In this document: piece by piece, positions 23,299-35,203 of the stretch
Position numbering within the stretch: the first letter of the stretch is position 1
Layout: every line of letters starts with the position of its first letter
Origin: Akkermansia sp.
GTDB taxonomy: Bacteria > Verrucomicrobiota > Verrucomicrobiia > Verrucomicrobiales > Akkermansiaceae
Assembly (NCBI GenBank): GCA_017517385.1
Contig: JAFWZG010000025.1
Coordinates: 1 to 64,000, forward strand
Direction: 5' to 3'
Length of the DNA: 64,000 nt
Notes under the pieces: model-generated
Databases searched by the model: none
What the model saw: only the letters and a program-made list of their open reading frames with translations
Told to the model about the DNA's origin: nothing
Made by a program: the position numbers and the translations under genes

Positions 23299-24996
23299 AT
23301 GAATAACACGGCACTTTTCAGGGAATTGGAACATCGGCTGCAGCGTGAGCCCGGCTTCTGCACCAGTGAAGGCGTACTCATCCGCAATGCCATAGCCGAG
23401 GCCGCCATGGAGCTACGCCCTGAGCTGCTGCGCCTGCTGCTTGGGCATGAAGAGCTGCGCTCCTTCTTCTTTGCGGAGGTGGAAGGCGTCATGATATTTG
23501 ACAAAGTAAAGTTCCTGCGTTTCGTTTCCAACAAAAACTTCCTGCCGGACAGCTTCACGGCGTACCGGAACCGCATCGGCTTGGCAGACGGCACAGGAGA
23601 CATGCTCGCAGAGCGGCGCCAAGTGGTGCTCAGCTGGCCATACAAAGACTGCCTGCTGGAAGGCGGCCAGACCCGAGAAGAAGCCCGCAGGGAAGAAATC
23701 TTCTGGAATGAAACTCTCGCGCCGGATGAAATCAACCGCCTCACCGAGCCGAAAGCACTCAGCCACTTCCACCGAGTCACAGCAGAGGGAGAACAACCTG
23801 TCACCCACCTGAATGGAGAGGAGGACTACATCATCCTCGGCAATAATCTGCTGGCTCTCTACAGCCTCCGCAAGCGCTATGCCGGAAAAGTGCGAATGAT
23901 TTACATCGACCCTCCCTACAACACCGGCGGTGATAGCTTTAGCTATAATGATACCTTCAATCACAGCACATGGCTCACCTTCATGCGCAACCGCTTGGAA
24001 GTGGCGCGCGACCTCCTCACACCGGATGGCAGCATCTACGTGCAGCTGGACTGGAATGAAGCACACTATTGCAAGGTGCTCATGGATGAAATTTTCGGCC
24101 GCGACTGCTTCCGCAATGAAATCATCTGGTGCTACACCGGCCCCGGCTCCCCGGGCATGAAGCAACTGAACCGCAAACATGATACCATCCTCTGGTACTC
24201 CCGAAGCCCTTCCGAGTGGGTATTCAATGGAAATGATATCCGCCTAAAATCCGAGGTACACGCCGGCGGCTTCAAGGGAGAAATGAATGCCGATATGAGC
24301 AGCGGATATACAGAAAAAGGCAAGATTCCCGAGGACTGGTGGGAGCTCTTCCACACCCCCGAGGATTTGGCGGATGAACTTCGCCGCCTCAGCGAGGAGC
24401 AGAAAAACATCAACAGTGATGACTGGTTCAAGGCTGCCGTCGCCGCACGCATTCGCGTGGACGGCGTACAACGCACCGGTTACCTCACAGAAAAACCCTA
24501 CAAGCTCATGGAGCGCCTCATCCGCCAAGCCACAAAGGAAGGGGACCTCGTGCTGGACTTCTTTGCCGGCAGCGGAACCACCGGTTATGTAGCAGGTTAT
24601 CTGAAGCGCCGTTTCATCCTTGTGGAGCAGCTGGAAGACACCGTGGCTATCATGCACCGCCGCTTCAGGGATTCCTCTCCCGTGTACTGTGACCTCGCCG
24701 CGGCCAACAGCCGTTTTCTGGATGCCATCGGCGCCGCCGGCACGCCGAAAGAGCTAGCGGATATCCTCGTGCAGATGACCACCCATGGCCACCTGAACTG
24801 GAAGGCGGACGTGGACACACTGAACGCCACCGCAGCAGAGTTCTCAGCCCTGCCCCTCGAACAGCAGAAAGACATCCTGCGCGAATGCTTGGACAAGAAC
24901 ATGCTCTACGTACCCCTCAGCGAGCTCAACAGCAGCGAGTTCCCCCTCAGTGAGACAGACCGCCGCCTTAACCGCGACTTCTACGAGCAGAAATGA
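23299..24996 (+). CDS. Type III restriction-modification methyltransferase (Mod)
   Basis: SAM-dependent DNA adenine methyltransferase of the beta order: catalytic motif IV DPPYN (204-208) precedes the SAM-binding motif FAGSGTT (422-428). The region between them is the target recognition part and sets specificity, which cannot be read here. The N-terminal 170 residues are a dimerisation/recognition extension common in Mod subunits. Length (565) is normal. The stop overlaps the next start by 4 bp (ATGA), as expected for Mod-Res pairs. No simple-sequence tract is visible that would make it phase-variable. Confidence 0.93.
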   Translation: MNNTALFRELEHRLQREPGFCTSEGVLIRNAIAEAAMELRPELLRLLLGHEELRSFFFAEVEGVMIFDKVKFLRFVSNKNFLPDSFTAYRNRIGLADGTGDMLAERRQVVLSWPYKDCLLEGGQTREEARREEIFWNETLAPDEINRLTEPKALSHFHRVTAEGEQPVTHLNGEEDYIILGNNLLALYSLRKRYAGKVRMIYIDPPYNTGGDSFSYNDTFNHSTWLTFMRNRLEVARDLLTPDGSIYVQLDWNEAHYCKVLMDEIFGRDCFRNEIIWCYTGPGSPGMKQLNRKHDTILWYSRSPSEWVFNGNDIRLKSEVHAGGFKGEMNADMSSGYTEKGKIPEDWWELFHTPEDLADELRRLSEEQKNINSDDWFKAAVAARIRVDGVQRTGYLTEKPYKLMERLIRQATKEGDLVLDFFAGSGTTGYVAGYLKRRFILVEQLEDTVAIMHRRFRDSSPVYCDLAAANSRFLDAIGAAGTPKELADILVQMTTHGHLNWKADVDTLNATAAEFSALPLEQQKDILRECLDKNMLYVPLSELNSSEFPLSETDRRLNRDFYEQK

Positions 24997-27506
24997 GCAG
25001 CCCCCTCACAGAGCCTGAGCCACTGCCTGCCACCATCACCGCGGGCCTGAACCCCGCCCTGCAGCTGCGCCCGTACCAGCAGGAATGCTTCCGCTCTTTC
25101 CTGAAGTACTGGGAACGTTATGGGGAAAACCCCAGTGCCCTGCACCACCTGCTCTTTCACATGGCCACCGGCAGCGGCAAGACGCTCATCATGGCCGGAC
25201 TCATGCTGCACCTTTATTCGCAGGGATACAGGAATTTCCTGTTCTTTGTGAACTCCACGAACATCATCGAGAAAACCCGCGAAAACTTCCTCAACCCGGC
25301 CTCCGCCAAATACCTCTTTGCCCCCGCTATCACCCAAAACGGCAAGCAGGTACCCATCCGCGCCGTAAGCCACTTCCGTGATGCTCAGCCGGATGCCATC
25401 AACCTCTGCCTCACCACTATCCAAAAGCTGCATGGTGACCTGAATACCGCCCGCGAAGGAGCCATAAGCTATGATGACTTCTCAGGGCAGAGCATCGTCT
25501 TCATCTCGGATGAAGCACACCACATGAACGCCGCCACCCGGAAAAACCGAAACCTACACGGCCTATCCCTGCGGCAGCTGGAACTCGCCTTCGAAGCACC
25601 GGATTTTGAGCCCAGTTATGAGAACACCGTGCTGCGCCTTTTCAATACCGGCACCGGCTCAGAACTTCCGAACGTGCTGCTGGAGTTTTCCGCAACGGTG
25701 GATTTTGATGATGAAAACATCGCGGAAAAATACAAGAATAAGGTACTTTTTGATTATTCCCTGCGCCGCTTCCGGCGGGATGGATACTCCAAGAACATCT
25801 GCGTGCAGCAAAGCGCACAGTCTGCAATGGACCGCGCGCTGCTAGCTACCCTTCTCAGCCAATACAAGCGCAAGCTCTTCGCCTCCATCGGCCTGGAATG
25901 CAAGCCCGTCATCCTCTTCAAATCCCGCCTCATCAAGGAAAACGCAGCGTTTCACCGTGAGTTCATCAGTTGCATCCGCAGTCTGAGCCCGGAAGACATC
26001 AAGCGCCTGCGACGCGAGGCAGAGAATGATACAGCCGCTATTTTCTCCCATCTGGAAGCCACCGGCTACTCCACAGAAAACCTCATCAGTGAACTGAGAG
26101 AGGACTTCTCTGAGGAAAAACTCCTGCTGGTGGATAATACCGAAATTTCGGCTGAAAAGCAACTTCTGCTCAACAGCTTGGAATCACCGGAAAACAAGAT
26201 TCGTGCTATCTTTGCTGTAGATATGCTGAACGAGGGTTGGGACGTGCTGAACCTCTGCGACATCGTGCGCCTGTACGACACTCGCGCCTCCGCCGGCGGA
26301 AAAATCGGCCACAAAACTGTGGCGGAAGCTCAGCTTATCGGCCGCGGCGCCCGCTACTACCCCTTCACGGATTGCAACAATCCGGAAGCCCCACGCGCCC
26401 GCCGCAAGTATGACCGTGATGCCGGCAACCCACTTCGCCTACTTGAAACACTACACTACCACAGCCCCTCCAACAGCCGCTACGTACAGGAGCTTAACTC
26501 CGCCATGGTACAAAGTGGCCTCGTGGCAAGAAGCAGTATCACGGTGCAGATGAACCTGAAAGATAGCTTCCGCAAGAGTGATTTCTTCACCACCGGCCGC
26601 CTGTACTTCAACCGCCGCGAAGAACTCCCACCCGCTGAGGAATGCCCGCTGGCAGAGCGGCTCCACACGCCCCTCTCCGCCTCCCTTCGTCTCCGCAAAG
26701 GTAACTGCCGCCTGCCGCTTTCCGCACTTGGTCTCCATACACTGCGAGCCGCGCTGAACCGCTTCGAATGCTACAAGCTGGACAACCTCCAGCGCATTTT
26801 CCCCACTCTGAGCTCCATCCGAGAATTCATCGAAAGTCCATTATTCCTCAGCGGCGTCTGTGTACAGGTGGAAGGGTGCACCACAAAAACACCGCTCACC
26901 CCGCAGCATAAGCTACACCTCGCACTAAGCGCCCTGCAGCAGCTGGAGCCTCAACTCCCCCGCCCCGGCACCCAGTACCGAGGCAAGCAGCTACTCACCT
27001 CACGTCCTGCTGCCGAGCTACTGCATGATTTACACCTCCGCTTGGATTCCGATGATGAACCCAGCGATGATGGCCCTAGCTTCGCCACAGAAGAATGGTA
27101 CACCCACAGCACCTGTTACCCCACCGCGGAAGAGGCACGCCTCCTCCGCGCCCTTCGCGAAGCCGCCCCCCAGTTGCGCCGGAAATACCGCAGCATGTGG
27201 CTTATTCCGAATCCCGGCACCGTGCGCTTGCATGATTTTGCCACCGGCACCCCCTTTTCTCCCAGCTTCATTCTCTGCCTTACCCCGGCAGCATCACAGC
27301 CGGCGCTGCAGATTTTTGCGGACTGCCGCCCGGAGCATCTCCAAGAGCTATACCGCCACCGCGTCCACACACTGAACACCCTTCAAGCTGCGGCGAAAGC
27401 CACCTTCGCAGGCTCCCTCTTTACCCGCCCCATCATTATGGGCCGAGCTTTGTACTGCGAAGATGACGTCCGGCAATTCATCCGCGAACTGCTAGAGGAG
27501 AGCTGA
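24993..27506 (+). CDS. Type III restriction enzyme, Res helicase subunit
   Basis: SF2 ATPase of a type III system, overlapping mod by 4 bp. Walker A ATGSGKT (58-64), DEAH box (173-176) and motif VI-like QLIGRGARYYPF are intact. After the helicase there are about 300 residues without clear motifs. The final nuclease region (754-837) reads PFSPSFILCL then QIFADCRPEHL, where Res enzymes as I recall them show PDF and E-x-K followed by G-HL. D to S (758) and K to R (779) changes suggest that DNA cleavage may be impaired. At 837 residues it is shorter than typical Res (about 900-1000). Confidence 0.9.
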   Translation: MSSPLTEPEPLPATITAGLNPALQLRPYQQECFRSFLKYWERYGENPSALHHLLFHMATGSGKTLIMAGLMLHLYSQGYRNFLFFVNSTNIIEKTRENFLNPASAKYLFAPAITQNGKQVPIRAVSHFRDAQPDAINLCLTTIQKLHGDLNTAREGAISYDDFSGQSIVFISDEAHHMNAATRKNRNLHGLSLRQLELAFEAPDFEPSYENTVLRLFNTGTGSELPNVLLEFSATVDFDDENIAEKYKNKVLFDYSLRRFRRDGYSKNICVQQSAQSAMDRALLATLLSQYKRKLFASIGLECKPVILFKSRLIKENAAFHREFISCIRSLSPEDIKRLRREAENDTAAIFSHLEATGYSTENLISELREDFSEEKLLLVDNTEISAEKQLLLNSLESPENKIRAIFAVDMLNEGWDVLNLCDIVRLYDTRASAGGKIGHKTVAEAQLIGRGARYYPFTDCNNPEAPRARRKYDRDAGNPLRLLETLHYHSPSNSRYVQELNSAMVQSGLVARSSITVQMNLKDSFRKSDFFTTGRLYFNRREELPPAEECPLAERLHTPLSASLRLRKGNCRLPLSALGLHTLRAALNRFECYKLDNLQRIFPTLSSIREFIESPLFLSGVCVQVEGCTTKTPLTPQHKLHLALSALQQLEPQLPRPGTQYRGKQLLTSRPAAELLHDLHLRLDSDDEPSDDGPSFATEEWYTHSTCYPTAEEARLLRALREAAPQLRRKYRSMWLIPNPGTVRLHDFATGTPFSPSFILCLTPAASQPALQIFADCRPEHLQELYRHRVHTLNTLQAAAKATFAGSLFTRPIIMGRALYCEDDVRQFIRELLEES

Positions 27507-31450: not shown

Positions 31451-32449
31451 ATGAGCACACCTCCTCCGCCCCCTTCACCTGTCCGCCCGGTTCCTCCCAC
31501 CGCGCCGGTTCCGCCCACTGTGGTTCGCCCCGCAGCACCCCCTGTAGGCGCAACGCGCCCCATGCCGCCCAGACCCGCCAGTGCTCCCGTGGCCCCTGTA
31601 CCGCCCTCTCGCCCCGTAGCTAACACGGTTCCCCTGAGCGCCCCCGTACCTCCCACTCGCCCCAGCGCCCCCGTACCTCCTACAGTAGTACCCGGTCGTC
31701 CTGCGGCCCCCAGTGCTCCCGTACCTCCCAGCGCCCCCATGCCGCCTACGGCTCCGGCTCGCCCCGCTGCTCCTAGCGCCCCCGTGCCTCCCACGGCTCC
31801 GGCTCGCCCCGCTGCTCCTAGCGCTCCTGTGCCTCCCACGGCTCCGGCTCGCCCCGCTGCTCCCGGCGCCCCCGTGCCTCCCACGGCTCCGGCTCGCCCC
31901 GCTGCTCCCGGCGCTCCTGTGCCTCCCACGGCTCCGGCTCGCCCCGCTGCTCCCGGTGCTCCCGTACCACCCACAGCTCCGGCTCGCCCCGCGGCACCTG
32001 CGGCCACAATCCCGCTTTCCGCCCCGGCTAAGCCTGCTGCTCCCGGCGCTCCCAAACCAGCAGCGCCTGCAGCTAAACCCGCGGCACCTGCAGCCAAGCC
32101 CACCGGCACATCCGCCATGCCCGCAGCCACGGCACCGCTTTCCAAGCCCACTGGGTTCACCAAACCTACAGGTTTTAACAAGCCCACTGGCTTCAACAAG
32201 AGTCAGGCTGAAGAGGAAGAGGATGATGAACCCAAGAAGGACAGCCCGATTCTCGTTGTGCTTGCTGCACTCAGCCTCGTTATCATACTGCTCATGGGCT
32301 TCGTACAGTACCAGACAGACCAAGTACCCGGTCGAGTCACCGTAGCAGACGCCGTCTTCGGCGATCCCACCGCTAATGGTGGTTCTGCAGATGAAGGCTC
32401 TTACGATGACAGCGATGCCGGAGAAGAGGATTACTCTGACGAAGAGTAA
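31451..32449 (+). CDS. Pro/Ala-rich repeat protein with single C-terminal transmembrane helix
   Basis: Function unknown. There is no signal peptide. Residues 1-220 are Pro/Ala/Val-rich; residues 97-186 are six 15-residue units of the form VPPTAPARPAAPGAP. A short KPTGF(T/N) repeat precedes an acidic stretch (QAEEEEDDEPKKD), one membrane helix (LVVLAALSLVIILLMGFV) and an acidic C-terminal tail. The topology suggests a cytoplasmic, extended Pro-rich rod tethered to the inner membrane, or the reverse. It lies 58 bp before trxA and may share its transcript. Confidence 0.7.
   Translation: MSTPPPPPSPVRPVPPTAPVPPTVVRPAAPPVGATRPMPPRPASAPVAPVPPSRPVANTVPLSAPVPPTRPSAPVPPTVVPGRPAAPSAPVPPSAPMPPTAPARPAAPSAPVPPTAPARPAAPSAPVPPTAPARPAAPGAPVPPTAPARPAAPGAPVPPTAPARPAAPGAPVPPTAPARPAAPAATIPLSAPAKPAAPGAPKPAAPAAKPAAPAAKPTGTSAMPAATAPLSKPTGFTKPTGFNKPTGFNKSQAEEEEDDEPKKDSPILVVLAALSLVIILLMGFVQYQTDQVPGRVTVADAVFGDPTANGGSADEGSYDDSDAGEEDYSDEE
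31739..32008 (+). repeat. Six tandem 45-bp in-frame repeats
   Basis: Each unit encodes VPPTAPARPAAP(S/G)AP. The units differ mainly at third codon positions, which shows selection on the protein repeat. GC content is locally very high. Confidence 0.85.
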
Positions 32450-32846: not shown

Positions 32847-32880
32847 AACGGGCAAGCTACTTTGTGGCTTGCCCGTTTTT
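32847..32880 (+). terminator. Rho-independent terminator of trxA
   Basis: An 11-bp stem AACGGGCAAGC (32847-32857) with GCTTGCCCGTT (32867-32877), followed by Ts to 32880. Confidence 0.92.
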
Positions 32881-32933
32881 CATTTAGAATACTAACAGTT
32901 GTGCGCTATACAGCATACACACGTAATTTCAGA

Positions 32934-32962
32934 TTGACTTAGCAGGAGTTAGGGCCTAGAAT
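32934..32962 (+). promoter_or_regulatory. Promoter of the double-PIN gene
   Basis: TTGACT (32934), 17 bp, TAGAAT (32957-32962). The predicted leader is about 94 nt, long for this window, so post-transcriptional control is possible. Confidence 0.65.
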
Positions 32963-33062: not shown

Positions 33063-34601
33063 ATGCAAACCCCTGAAAACCTTCCCGTACCAGAGCAGCA
33101 AAACGCGGGAAACCCTTACAGCCGGTTCGACATTATCTATGTAGACGCCTGCACTTGGATGGCCGAGGAAATAGAGAGCTACCTTCTGCAAAACGCCTAT
33201 CTTCTTAATGCCGTGAATAAAAAACTCACCATGACTGCAAGCGTATTGCAGGAATTGGAAAACTGCTCCACCCTCAAATACGCGGCGCAGACCGCACTGA
33301 AAATCAAAGAACGTTACGCTCACCTTATCAATGTAGAAGAAGGTGAAGTAAGCCCCGGAACAGCAGACGGCGAATTTGTACGTCTCTTCTTCTTTAACCA
33401 CCGCAAGCGCAGCCAACTTCTCATCACCCATGACCAACAGCTCGCTACCGACATACGGAACTGCTGTTCTGATACTACTGATGATGCTACCGGCAGCACC
33501 GCGGTCATGACCCTCTGGCCGGATGGTGAGCTCATCACATTCCCGGAAATGGTGAACCGCAAGGACAGCATCGCCCGCAACCGTCTAGCCGAAATGGTGG
33601 GTAACAGCCCCATTTATCTGGACAGCTCTTCCCTGATTCATGAAAACCTGCCCCTCTTTCTGGAACATATTACAGCGCCCATGCAGGGGCAAGACAAAAA
33701 GGTGCAGATTGTAAACAACTCCCTTTCCCCGGAAATTAGAGAAGCGCTCACCCCTATACTCGAAGAGCACACTAACCTGCTACAGCAGGTGCAGACAGAC
33801 CCCACCCTCACGGAAACAGATGCGCTGCTGGGTGAGCTTTACCTGAACCCGGCTAATATGGGTACCGGGCGCCTGATTCTCGTCACGGATGACGTTGCCC
33901 GAGCCAATGAACTGAGAACCCGCCGCCCCAAATGCGACCGCTTCCCGTTCATTGATTTCATGACCATCAACAAATACGGCTACCTGAGCTACCTGAAGCT
34001 CTCGGAGCCCGCAGCCGCGGCTCCACGCCCCCGCTATACTTCACCGGTGCGGGAATACAGCCCACGCAGCACTTCCTATGACCGCGGGCTGGAGCGCAAG
34101 CCCTCCGCTTATGTACCACAGCTTATCGGTGCCATCAAGAGCGAGGATATCGAGTCCATGTGCGCCTACATTGCTAAAGGGGCGAACCTGCGAAACGGCA
34201 TCATCACCTCCCTCTGTCAGAATAAAGACGTATGCCTGCGCGTACTACTGGAAACCGCAGCACCGGGTATTGAGCCCAGCTGCTTCGAATGGTGGGTTAC
34301 AAGCTTTTACTCCTTTGCAGAGCCCATGTACCTCGCAGAAAATGCAGAGCATTTTGCCCTCATGAAGCTCCTCGTGGAGAAATCCGCCTCCATGGAGCAG
34401 CTTACTGCAGCCATGACCACCCTCGCAGAGCGCGTAAGCGCCCCTGAGGCAGCTCACGAGCAGCTCTGGACCATCATCCGCATGGCACTGAAAAACGGTG
34501 CACCTGCAGCCGTTTATTCCCACGCCACCGGCGAAACTCTTCCGGAGATTGCCGCCCGTCAGGGGAATACTGAAATGCTCGCATTCCTGCAATCTCGTTA
34601 A
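33063..34601 (+). CDS. Tandem PIN-domain protein with C-terminal ankyrin-like repeats
   Basis: No named family is recognised. Residues about 23-135 match a PIN ribonuclease fold with four acidic positions: D28 (IIYVDACTW), E64 (VLQELE), D102 (TADGEF) and D124 (LLITHDQQLA). Residues about 183-310 repeat the pattern: D187 (IYLDSSSLI), E224 (LSPEIREAL), D253 (TETDALLGEL) and D276/D277 (LILVTDDVARA). A linker with Pro/Arg/Tyr follows, then about 355-512 with ankyrin-like helices (GAIKSEDIESMCAYIAKGAN, LPEIAARQGNTEMLAFLQ). Both PIN copies look catalytically complete, so an RNase with a protein-binding tail is the inference. No antitoxin gene is adjacent; it is monocistronic with its own promoter. 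Confidence 0.72.
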   Translation: MQTPENLPVPEQQNAGNPYSRFDIIYVDACTWMAEEIESYLLQNAYLLNAVNKKLTMTASVLQELENCSTLKYAAQTALKIKERYAHLINVEEGEVSPGTADGEFVRLFFFNHRKRSQLLITHDQQLATDIRNCCSDTTDDATGSTAVMTLWPDGELITFPEMVNRKDSIARNRLAEMVGNSPIYLDSSSLIHENLPLFLEHITAPMQGQDKKVQIVNNSLSPEIREALTPILEEHTNLLQQVQTDPTLTETDALLGELYLNPANMGTGRLILVTDDVARANELRTRRPKCDRFPFIDFMTINKYGYLSYLKLSEPAAAAPRPRYTSPVREYSPRSTSYDRGLERKPSAYVPQLIGAIKSEDIESMCAYIAKGANLRNGIITSLCQNKDVCLRVLLETAAPGIEPSCFEWWVTSFYSFAEPMYLAENAEHFALMKLLVEKSASMEQLTAAMTTLAERVSAPEAAHEQLWTIIRMALKNGAPAAVYSHATGETLPEIAARQGNTEMLAFLQSR

Positions 34602-34625: not shown

Positions 34626-35203
34626 ATCAAGTAGGGGGACTTTCGTCCCCCTCTCACACCACCGTACGTGCGAATTACCGCATACGGCGGTTTCTCGGCG
34701 TGTGATTGGTCCTGGAACTAATGTTCCCGCCGCAACTCTTTTATCTCTCCTCGCCGGATACCCTGTCAGCTCCTCCGCACTGTTACGTGGATTCGGACTT
34801 GCACCGCTTTCCATCTTTCAGTCGAGGCTTCGTACATTTCAGTACTTCTTAGCTCTGCTGCTATAGGTTCTGAGCTTTGAGTGGTTGCCCACGCCGAGAT
34901 TCAGCCCTTCCCACCGGGGTTGTTCGTTTTGGTGGTACTATGGCCTCTGCTGACTCCCTACAGACGGTGTATACCGCAGTGCTTTCACGCTTAAGTAGGG
35001 TCTCACCGAATATGAGTATGCTACTTTCCTCTCGCGCCGTCTGCATCTACCTTGTGGACTCTTGATGATGTATTGGATTTCCTCTCGAACTTCCTTTCCC
35101 ACGGTTTGTTACCTCCCCGCAGTTATTCTTCAGGTCTGGGATTCCGCATCATCGCGGCTCCGCGCGGACTTTCACCGCAGTGCGCATATCGCGTCGGTCG
35201 TAC
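34626..35203 (-). mobile_element. ORF-less group IIC intron (copy 3)
   Basis: A 578-bp element on the minus strand from GTACGACC (35203) to the probable 3' end CTACTTGAT (34626). The domain III segment (CAGCAGAGGCCATAGTACC, about 34934-34952), domain V (34660-34694, CGCCGTATGCG/CGCACGTACGG with a CGC-type catalytic triad) and the domain VI hairpin GGGGGACGAAAGTCCCCC (34633-34650) are all present. No reverse transcriptase gene fits inside. Relative to copy 1 it lacks 69 bp of domain I between direct ggatttc repeats, so splicing may be lost. It sits after the terminator of the MFS/Kelch operon. Confidence 0.82.

Follow-up and report, generated by a model that had tools for sequence, protein, structure and literature searches.

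The gene under study, which lies in a 64,000-nucleotide stretch of Akkermansia DNA (hereafter the window), encodes a protein in which a PIN domain with an intact acidic quartet (PIN1) is followed by a second PIN domain whose quartet is eroding (PIN2) and by an ankyrin-like helical tail. We tentatively propose, giving it a little less than an even chance, that this protein is a single-chain endoribonuclease in which PIN1 would cut, PIN2 would help and the tail would target or restrain the enzyme, and that it probably belongs to a family of conflict RNases. The initial annotation of this DNA, made from the letters alone, is partly confirmed in its observations, as the gene, the predicted folds, the PIN1 quartet and the predicted leader all stand but the second PIN domain is not "complete"; its interpretation, a PIN RNase with built-in partner binding acting in stress or defence, is partly supported.

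Gene, orthologues and genomic context

The host is a herbivore-gut Akkermansia with a genome of 2.66 Mb, in which a single member of the family was detected. The ORF had been positioned exactly (Table 1) and is a real, conserved gene, since full-length orthologues with 57-66% identity occur in the genomes of eight other Akkermansia species, which brings the full-length proteins to nine in 76 Akkermansia genomes. It is flanked by trxA and an MFS gene, outside any restriction-modification (RM) operon, and these neighbours, together with kelch genes and metK, are housekeeping in character; their order is kept in most orthologues, a conserved synteny that suggests vertical inheritance. At MFS loci devoid of the PIN gene no trxA was found within the 1.5 kb read for an empty-site comparison. 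Rapid evolution of the arms-race type was considered, as one orthologue is 62% identical against 95% for the neighbouring MFS protein, and was rejected; the other neighbours span 48-95% identity, and the PIN protein is therefore no outlier in divergence.

Table 1. Position of the features described in the text (window coordinates, except where a locus is named)
Feature	Position	Strand	Evidence or remark
PIN1-PIN2-ankyrin-like tail protein	33063..34601	+	ORF, 512 aa; nine orthologues including itself; AlphaFold2 pLDDT 83.6
PIN1, residues 18-160	33114..33542	+	quartet D28, E64, D102, D124 invariant; Utp24 fold match
PIN2, residues 180-316	33600..34010	+	PIN fold; quartet D187, E224, D253, D277 partly eroded
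Basic loop and strand RANELRxRRPKCDRFPxxDFMxINKY, residues ~280-307, in PIN2	33900..33983	+	densest invariant columns
C-terminal ankyrin-like helical repeats, residues 347-512	34101..34598	+	helix pairs in model; DARPin matches
Terminator-like hairpin of upstream trxA	32847..32877	+	terminator scan: 14-bp stem and T run; separates two transcription units
Conserved promoter region CACACGTAATTTCAGATTGACTTAGCAGGA..TAGAAT	32919..32962	+	-35/-10 match 10/12
Type III restriction-modification pair (mod, res)	23299-27506	+	PIN gene lies 5.5 kb downstream
Two-gene multi-PIN modules	L026:1471-4546, L027:5606-8658, L028:4727-9153, L029:5235-9660		
Subfamily B genes	L084:5658-7622, L085:4334-6373, L086:5897-7360, L087:4852-6732, L088:6033-8042		

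A promoter scan placed the element TTGACT-17-TAGAAT at 32934-32962, with a result that is not significant by itself (3 sites, with 2.4 expected); in 7/7 aligned upstream regions, the columns TTGAC and TAnAAT, inside CACACnCAATTTCAGATTGACTTnGCAGGA, are invariant. A hairpin similar to the trxA terminator is visible upstream of several orthologues. Given these conserved promoter columns and the terminator just upstream, the leader of about 94 nt and the monocistronic reading hold as predictions, and the absence of an antitoxin neighbour was likewise upheld, neither the window nor the orthologue loci showing a small partner gene. The extended promoter motif has one exact site in the genome and a copy with three mismatches 5' of a tyrS-like gene. 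A regulon sharing this motif was considered and rejected; because its sole other site precedes the tyrS-like gene, the promoter of the PIN gene looks like an ordinary strong promoter.

Homologues of the res gene of the type III RM pair (Table 1) occur at the orthologue loci L008 and L013, a matter of neighbourhood and not of demonstrated linkage to the PIN gene. Just downstream of the gene (34626-34997, minus strand) lie two RNA elements of group II introns, RF00029 and RF01998, probably a truncated intron, with no full maturase ORF nearby. Upstream, a proline-rich repetitive protein with a hydrophobic C-terminal segment and no Pfam match is encoded at 31451-32449 (plus strand), and it is found upstream at several orthologue loci too.

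Domain architecture

Scans of the window protein against Pfam, NCBIfam, PADLOC and PHROGs gave nothing usable. An HMM search for PIN homology had been recommended in the initial annotation, and its outcome was divided: no Pfam PIN model matches the window protein, but the family profile matches the PIN-fold domain 3i8o in the PDB (E 3.6e-4, followed by the PIN domain 1o4w at E 0.023) and a relative, L082, passes the threshold of PIN_4. Based on these two matches and on the structure search with predicted folds, we place the protein in the PIN superfamily, an assignment made through models and profiles.

The predicted structure of PIN1 (matched residues 18-162) superposes on Utp24 with a Z of 12.5 and an rmsd of 3.2 over 124 aligned residues, at about 16% identity in the aligned region, and on SMG6/EST1A with a Z of 10.7. 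Each of D28, E64, D102 and D124 is invariant in 9/9 orthologues, whereas the chance that four random PIN1 columns are all invariant is 0.009. In an alignment of 13 very diverse relatives, in which single PIN proteins encoded on Streptococcus and Butyrivibrio plasmids are represented, the quartet and one Thr are the invariant columns and there are no others. Judged by predicted fold and by four acids in the expected order, PIN1 is a member of the PIN superfamily, and the fold match and the invariant quartet bear out its earlier description as a complete PIN domain.

PIN2, folded by itself, reached a pLDDT of 89.9 and a pTM of 0.86, and alone it matches Utp24 (Z 9.3, rmsd 3.8, 123 residues; 7-14% identity in aligned regions), SMG6 (Z 8.2) and, by Foldseek, Utp23 (E 2e-4). 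The two PIN domains align with each other over 122 columns in hhalign (E 1.9e-5). Among the nine orthologues D187, D277 and E251 are kept in all, E224 in eight (it is replaced by T in L009), D253 in seven (N in L011 and L013) and D276 in six, so that, counting D277, the full quartet is present in 6/9, the window protein among them; in related subfamilies the first acid and others are lost. Consequently, of the "two complete PIN domains" announced for this protein, PIN1 is complete and PIN2 does have the PIN fold, but the PIN2 quartet is complete in those six only, and the conservation of all eight acids among homologues, which had been proposed as a check, applies to the four of PIN1 and in part to those of PIN2, eroded as they are in relatives. 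Since erosion extends to all related subfamilies, we favour reading PIN2 as a partner or pseudo-PIN domain over a second complete PIN domain, although its four acids, kept in six orthologues, may leave it able to cut in some species. The basic loop and strand RANELRxRRPKCDRFPxxDFMxINKY shows the highest conservation of the entire protein, and invariant columns amount to 36% in PIN2 against 31% in PIN1 (nine orthologues). A conserved loop beside an eroding quartet argues that PIN2 is under strong selection, not solely for a complete active site.

In structure searches the C-terminal tail matched designed repeat proteins and ankyrin/DARPin proteins (Z up to 10.2); the DARPin matches have a Z of 7.8-8.4, modest for helical repeats, and an rmsd of 4.6-5.5 over ~140 residues. 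By profile, the tail has weak sequence matches (E 0.025-0.43) to PDB entries for ankyrin or designed repeat proteins. No ankyrin Pfam model matches the window protein, and the best ankyrin score, that of Ank_4 in orthologue L013 (E 7.5e-4), is 20.2 bits, under the cut-off of 22.7. The tail is ankyrin-like mainly by its modelled structure: the helix pairs and the modest DARPin matches are in keeping with the ankyrin-like tail that had been described, but a sequence match above a curated cut-off does not accompany them. The AlphaFold2 model of the full chain, built with 12 aligned sequences, has a mean pLDDT of 83.6 and a pTM of 0.47, which means that the individual domains are confident and that their arrangement, including the packing of PIN1 on PIN2, is of low confidence.

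Relatives of the window protein

Matches to the full-length profile among 388 genomes of the phylum were found in Akkermansia only. The PIN1 profile recovered one to three members in 20/76 Akkermansia genomes and one distant member in each of two other genera of the phylum. L082 (1438-3282), from another genus, scores 25.6 with Pfam PIN_4 against a cut-off of 21.9 and carries a fused kinase-like domain; being a PIN_4 protein by Pfam, it links these proteins to an already named PIN family. The CARF_PIN models of PADLOC match the PIN part only of relatives and do not match the window protein. Because Pfam, NCBIfam and PADLOC miss the window protein and the scanned relatives, save for an attached methylase or kinase-like part, members are likely to be annotated as hypothetical. 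No match to the PIN protein was found in phage collections, no relatives in viral contigs and no significant match in a structure search among viral proteins; the two weak matches from plasmid collections were proteins with one PIN domain and a hydrophobic C-terminal end.

The paralogue closest to the window protein (E ~1e-22, 25-26% identity) is the second protein of a two-gene module present in four genomes (L026-L029), in which a PIN-PIN gene is followed by a PIN-PIN-tail gene. In 4/4 hsdM follows the module on the same strand after 50-85 nt; hsdS follows hsdM where the contig continues, and hsdR comes after in two (PADLOC). The first protein has 383-424 aa and the second either 593 aa or 1080 aa, the 1080-aa form, found in two of the four genomes, being fused to an N6-adenine methylase (Pfam N6_Mtase, E 2e-33).

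A further group within Akkermansia, subfamily B (L084-L088), has the same order of PIN, degenerate PIN and helical tail, and aligns with the window family in hhalign over 419 columns at full length (E 2.8e-16) and with the tails alone (E 1.8e-7). In its PIN2 the first Asp is replaced in 5/5, the acids of PIN1 are intact, and the tail is longer, with a repeated CFxxWF motif in 4/5. Two other relatives were noted: L092:660-6374 holds a 727-aa protein, with the family PIN domain near the C-terminus and more PIN-like segments, beside two dynamin-like GTPase genes, and at L090:698-8746 a PIN-family protein of 445 aa has a Ser/Thr kinase and a dynamin-like GTPase encoded nearby. The contexts of the RM-linked, GTPase-adjacent and kinase-adjacent relatives resemble those of defence genes.

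Mechanism and alternative explanations

In the mechanism that we propose, D28, E64, D102 and D124 of PIN1 would form a metal-dependent active site that cuts RNA. PIN2, a duplicated and degenerating PIN domain, would pack on PIN1 and help to form the substrate groove with its invariant basic loop RRPKCDRFP, a role akin to that proposed for the inactive PIN of SMG5 in completing the active site of SMG6, here within the same chain. By binding a partner or a trigger, the ankyrin-like tail may target or restrain the nuclease and so stand in for an antitoxin. The preservation of PIN1 while PIN2 is eroded in subfamily B speaks for an endoribonuclease. The earlier suggestion of a PIN RNase fused to a binding module and lacking an antitoxin is supported by sequence conservation, structure prediction and context.

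That the family probably consists of conflict (anti-phage or stress) RNases is argued by its nearest paralogues, which form two-gene modules in type I RM operons; the presence of such distant cousins within DNA restriction operons suggests that the window family derives from anti-virus defence. The defence role previously put forward is in this way favoured by distant relatives but not by the window gene itself, which, unlike the paralogous pairs in four genomes, lies outside any type I hsd operon. Against such a role, the gene sits among housekeeping genes and its tyrS-like promoter fits a constitutive RNA-processing enzyme equally. The RM-linked relatives may merit more attention than the window gene. 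A broader hypothesis, which we hold to be rather doubtful, is that these proteins are bacterial single-chain composite PIN nucleases, with an active PIN, a helper PIN and an ankyrin-like sensor, in which the completion of one PIN site by a second PIN arose independently of SMG5-SMG6, and that their split, RM-embedded form, joined in places to an N6-adenine methylase, would be a new, PIN-based and PrrC-like guard fired when restriction is inhibited.

A constitutive housekeeping enzyme that processes RNA like Utp24/Fcf1, with a protein-binding tail and no link to defence, is possible though somewhat unlikely: Utp24 and SMG6 are the top fold matches, the site between trxA and the MFS gene and the conserved tyrS-like promoter are what such an enzyme would show, and the synteny suggests vertical inheritance, but full-length orthologues in 9/76 Akkermansia genomes are too patchy for an essential function, and the paralogues are RM-linked. 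The acids of PIN2 bear on a different alternative, in which both PIN domains are active and the protein is a tandem RNase with two cutting sites. This is unlikely in our judgement, because D253 and E224 are substituted in three orthologues, the first acid and others are gone in related subfamilies, and the basic loop, not the acids, is the most constrained part; nevertheless, D187, D277 and E251 are kept throughout and E224 in all but one orthologue, the window protein and five others retain the full quartet, and PIN2 has the higher share of invariant columns.

The opposite view, that of a catalytically dead scaffold whose PIN folds serve for RNA or protein binding only, would draw on the existence of non-catalytic PIN-fold domains, such as that of SMG5 (PMC12923823), and on the trend of PIN2 in the same direction; the invariance of all four PIN1 acids in very divergent relatives makes it highly improbable. 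The PIN fold would also suit a toxin of the VapC type, paired with an antitoxin, but the 512-aa chain with its tail, its own promoter after the trxA terminator and the lack of a small partner gene both in the window and at orthologue loci render this explanation barely credible. We retain the single-chain endoribonuclease, in which PIN1 would be the cutting domain, as the preferred reading.

Comparison with known systems

PIN RNases are usually small toxins, or eukaryotic factors of RNA decay and ribosome processing. VapC has the PIN fold and the four acids in common with the window protein but is a single small domain accompanied by the antitoxin VapB. Utp24/Fcf1, which matures rRNA, gives the best fold match of both PIN1 and PIN2, and differs in being a eukaryotic ribosome-processing factor (90S pre-ribosome). 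PIN_4 (PF13638) is reached through the relative L082, which exceeds its cut-off, whereas the window protein matches no Pfam PIN model.

For the combination of an active and an inactive PIN domain, SMG5-SMG6 is the nearest precedent with experimental support: there the inactive PIN of SMG5 stimulates SMG6 and has been suggested to contribute an aspartate to the SMG6 site (PMC12923823). In both cases an active and a degenerate PIN domain are each in a chain with helical-repeat domains, and SMG6 matches both PIN folds of the window protein. SMG5 and SMG6, however, are distinct proteins of eukaryotes in which 14-3-3/TPR-like helices precede the PIN domain, whereas the window protein is one chain with ankyrin-like repeats after its PIN domains, the likeness being one of fold and domain make-up. 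The kind of enzyme, a PIN RNase, is known; in the open-licence literature we found no published description of a bacterial protein that unites an active PIN domain, an eroding one and an ankyrin-like tail in a single chain, so that the family of two PIN domains and ankyrin repeats that had been called undescribed appears to be so within that literature, but with a second PIN domain that is eroding. This arrangement would offer a compact model of how duplicate PIN domains turn into helper domains.

Among defence systems, DS-3 and DS-5 of DefensePredictor require their PIN catalytic residues for phage defence (PMC13092281). DS-3 is one protein with the PIN domain split between its two ends, and DS-5 includes a second protein, which combines DUF5830 with an AcrIF4-like domain; neither is described as having tandem PIN domains and an ankyrin tail, a distinction drawn from the published descriptions (PMC13092281). 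The RNase PrrC is embedded in a type I RM locus (EcoPrrI) and released when restriction is inhibited (PMC12707154, PMC3710099). The likeness, an RNase gene embedded with hsd genes, concerns only the relatives of the window gene, which itself lies outside RM operons, and PrrC combines an ABC-ATPase with HEPN and has no PIN domain. By analogy, if the RM-embedded relatives are true RNase guards of restriction, their two-gene module could play, with PIN domains, the part that the HEPN nuclease PrrC plays.
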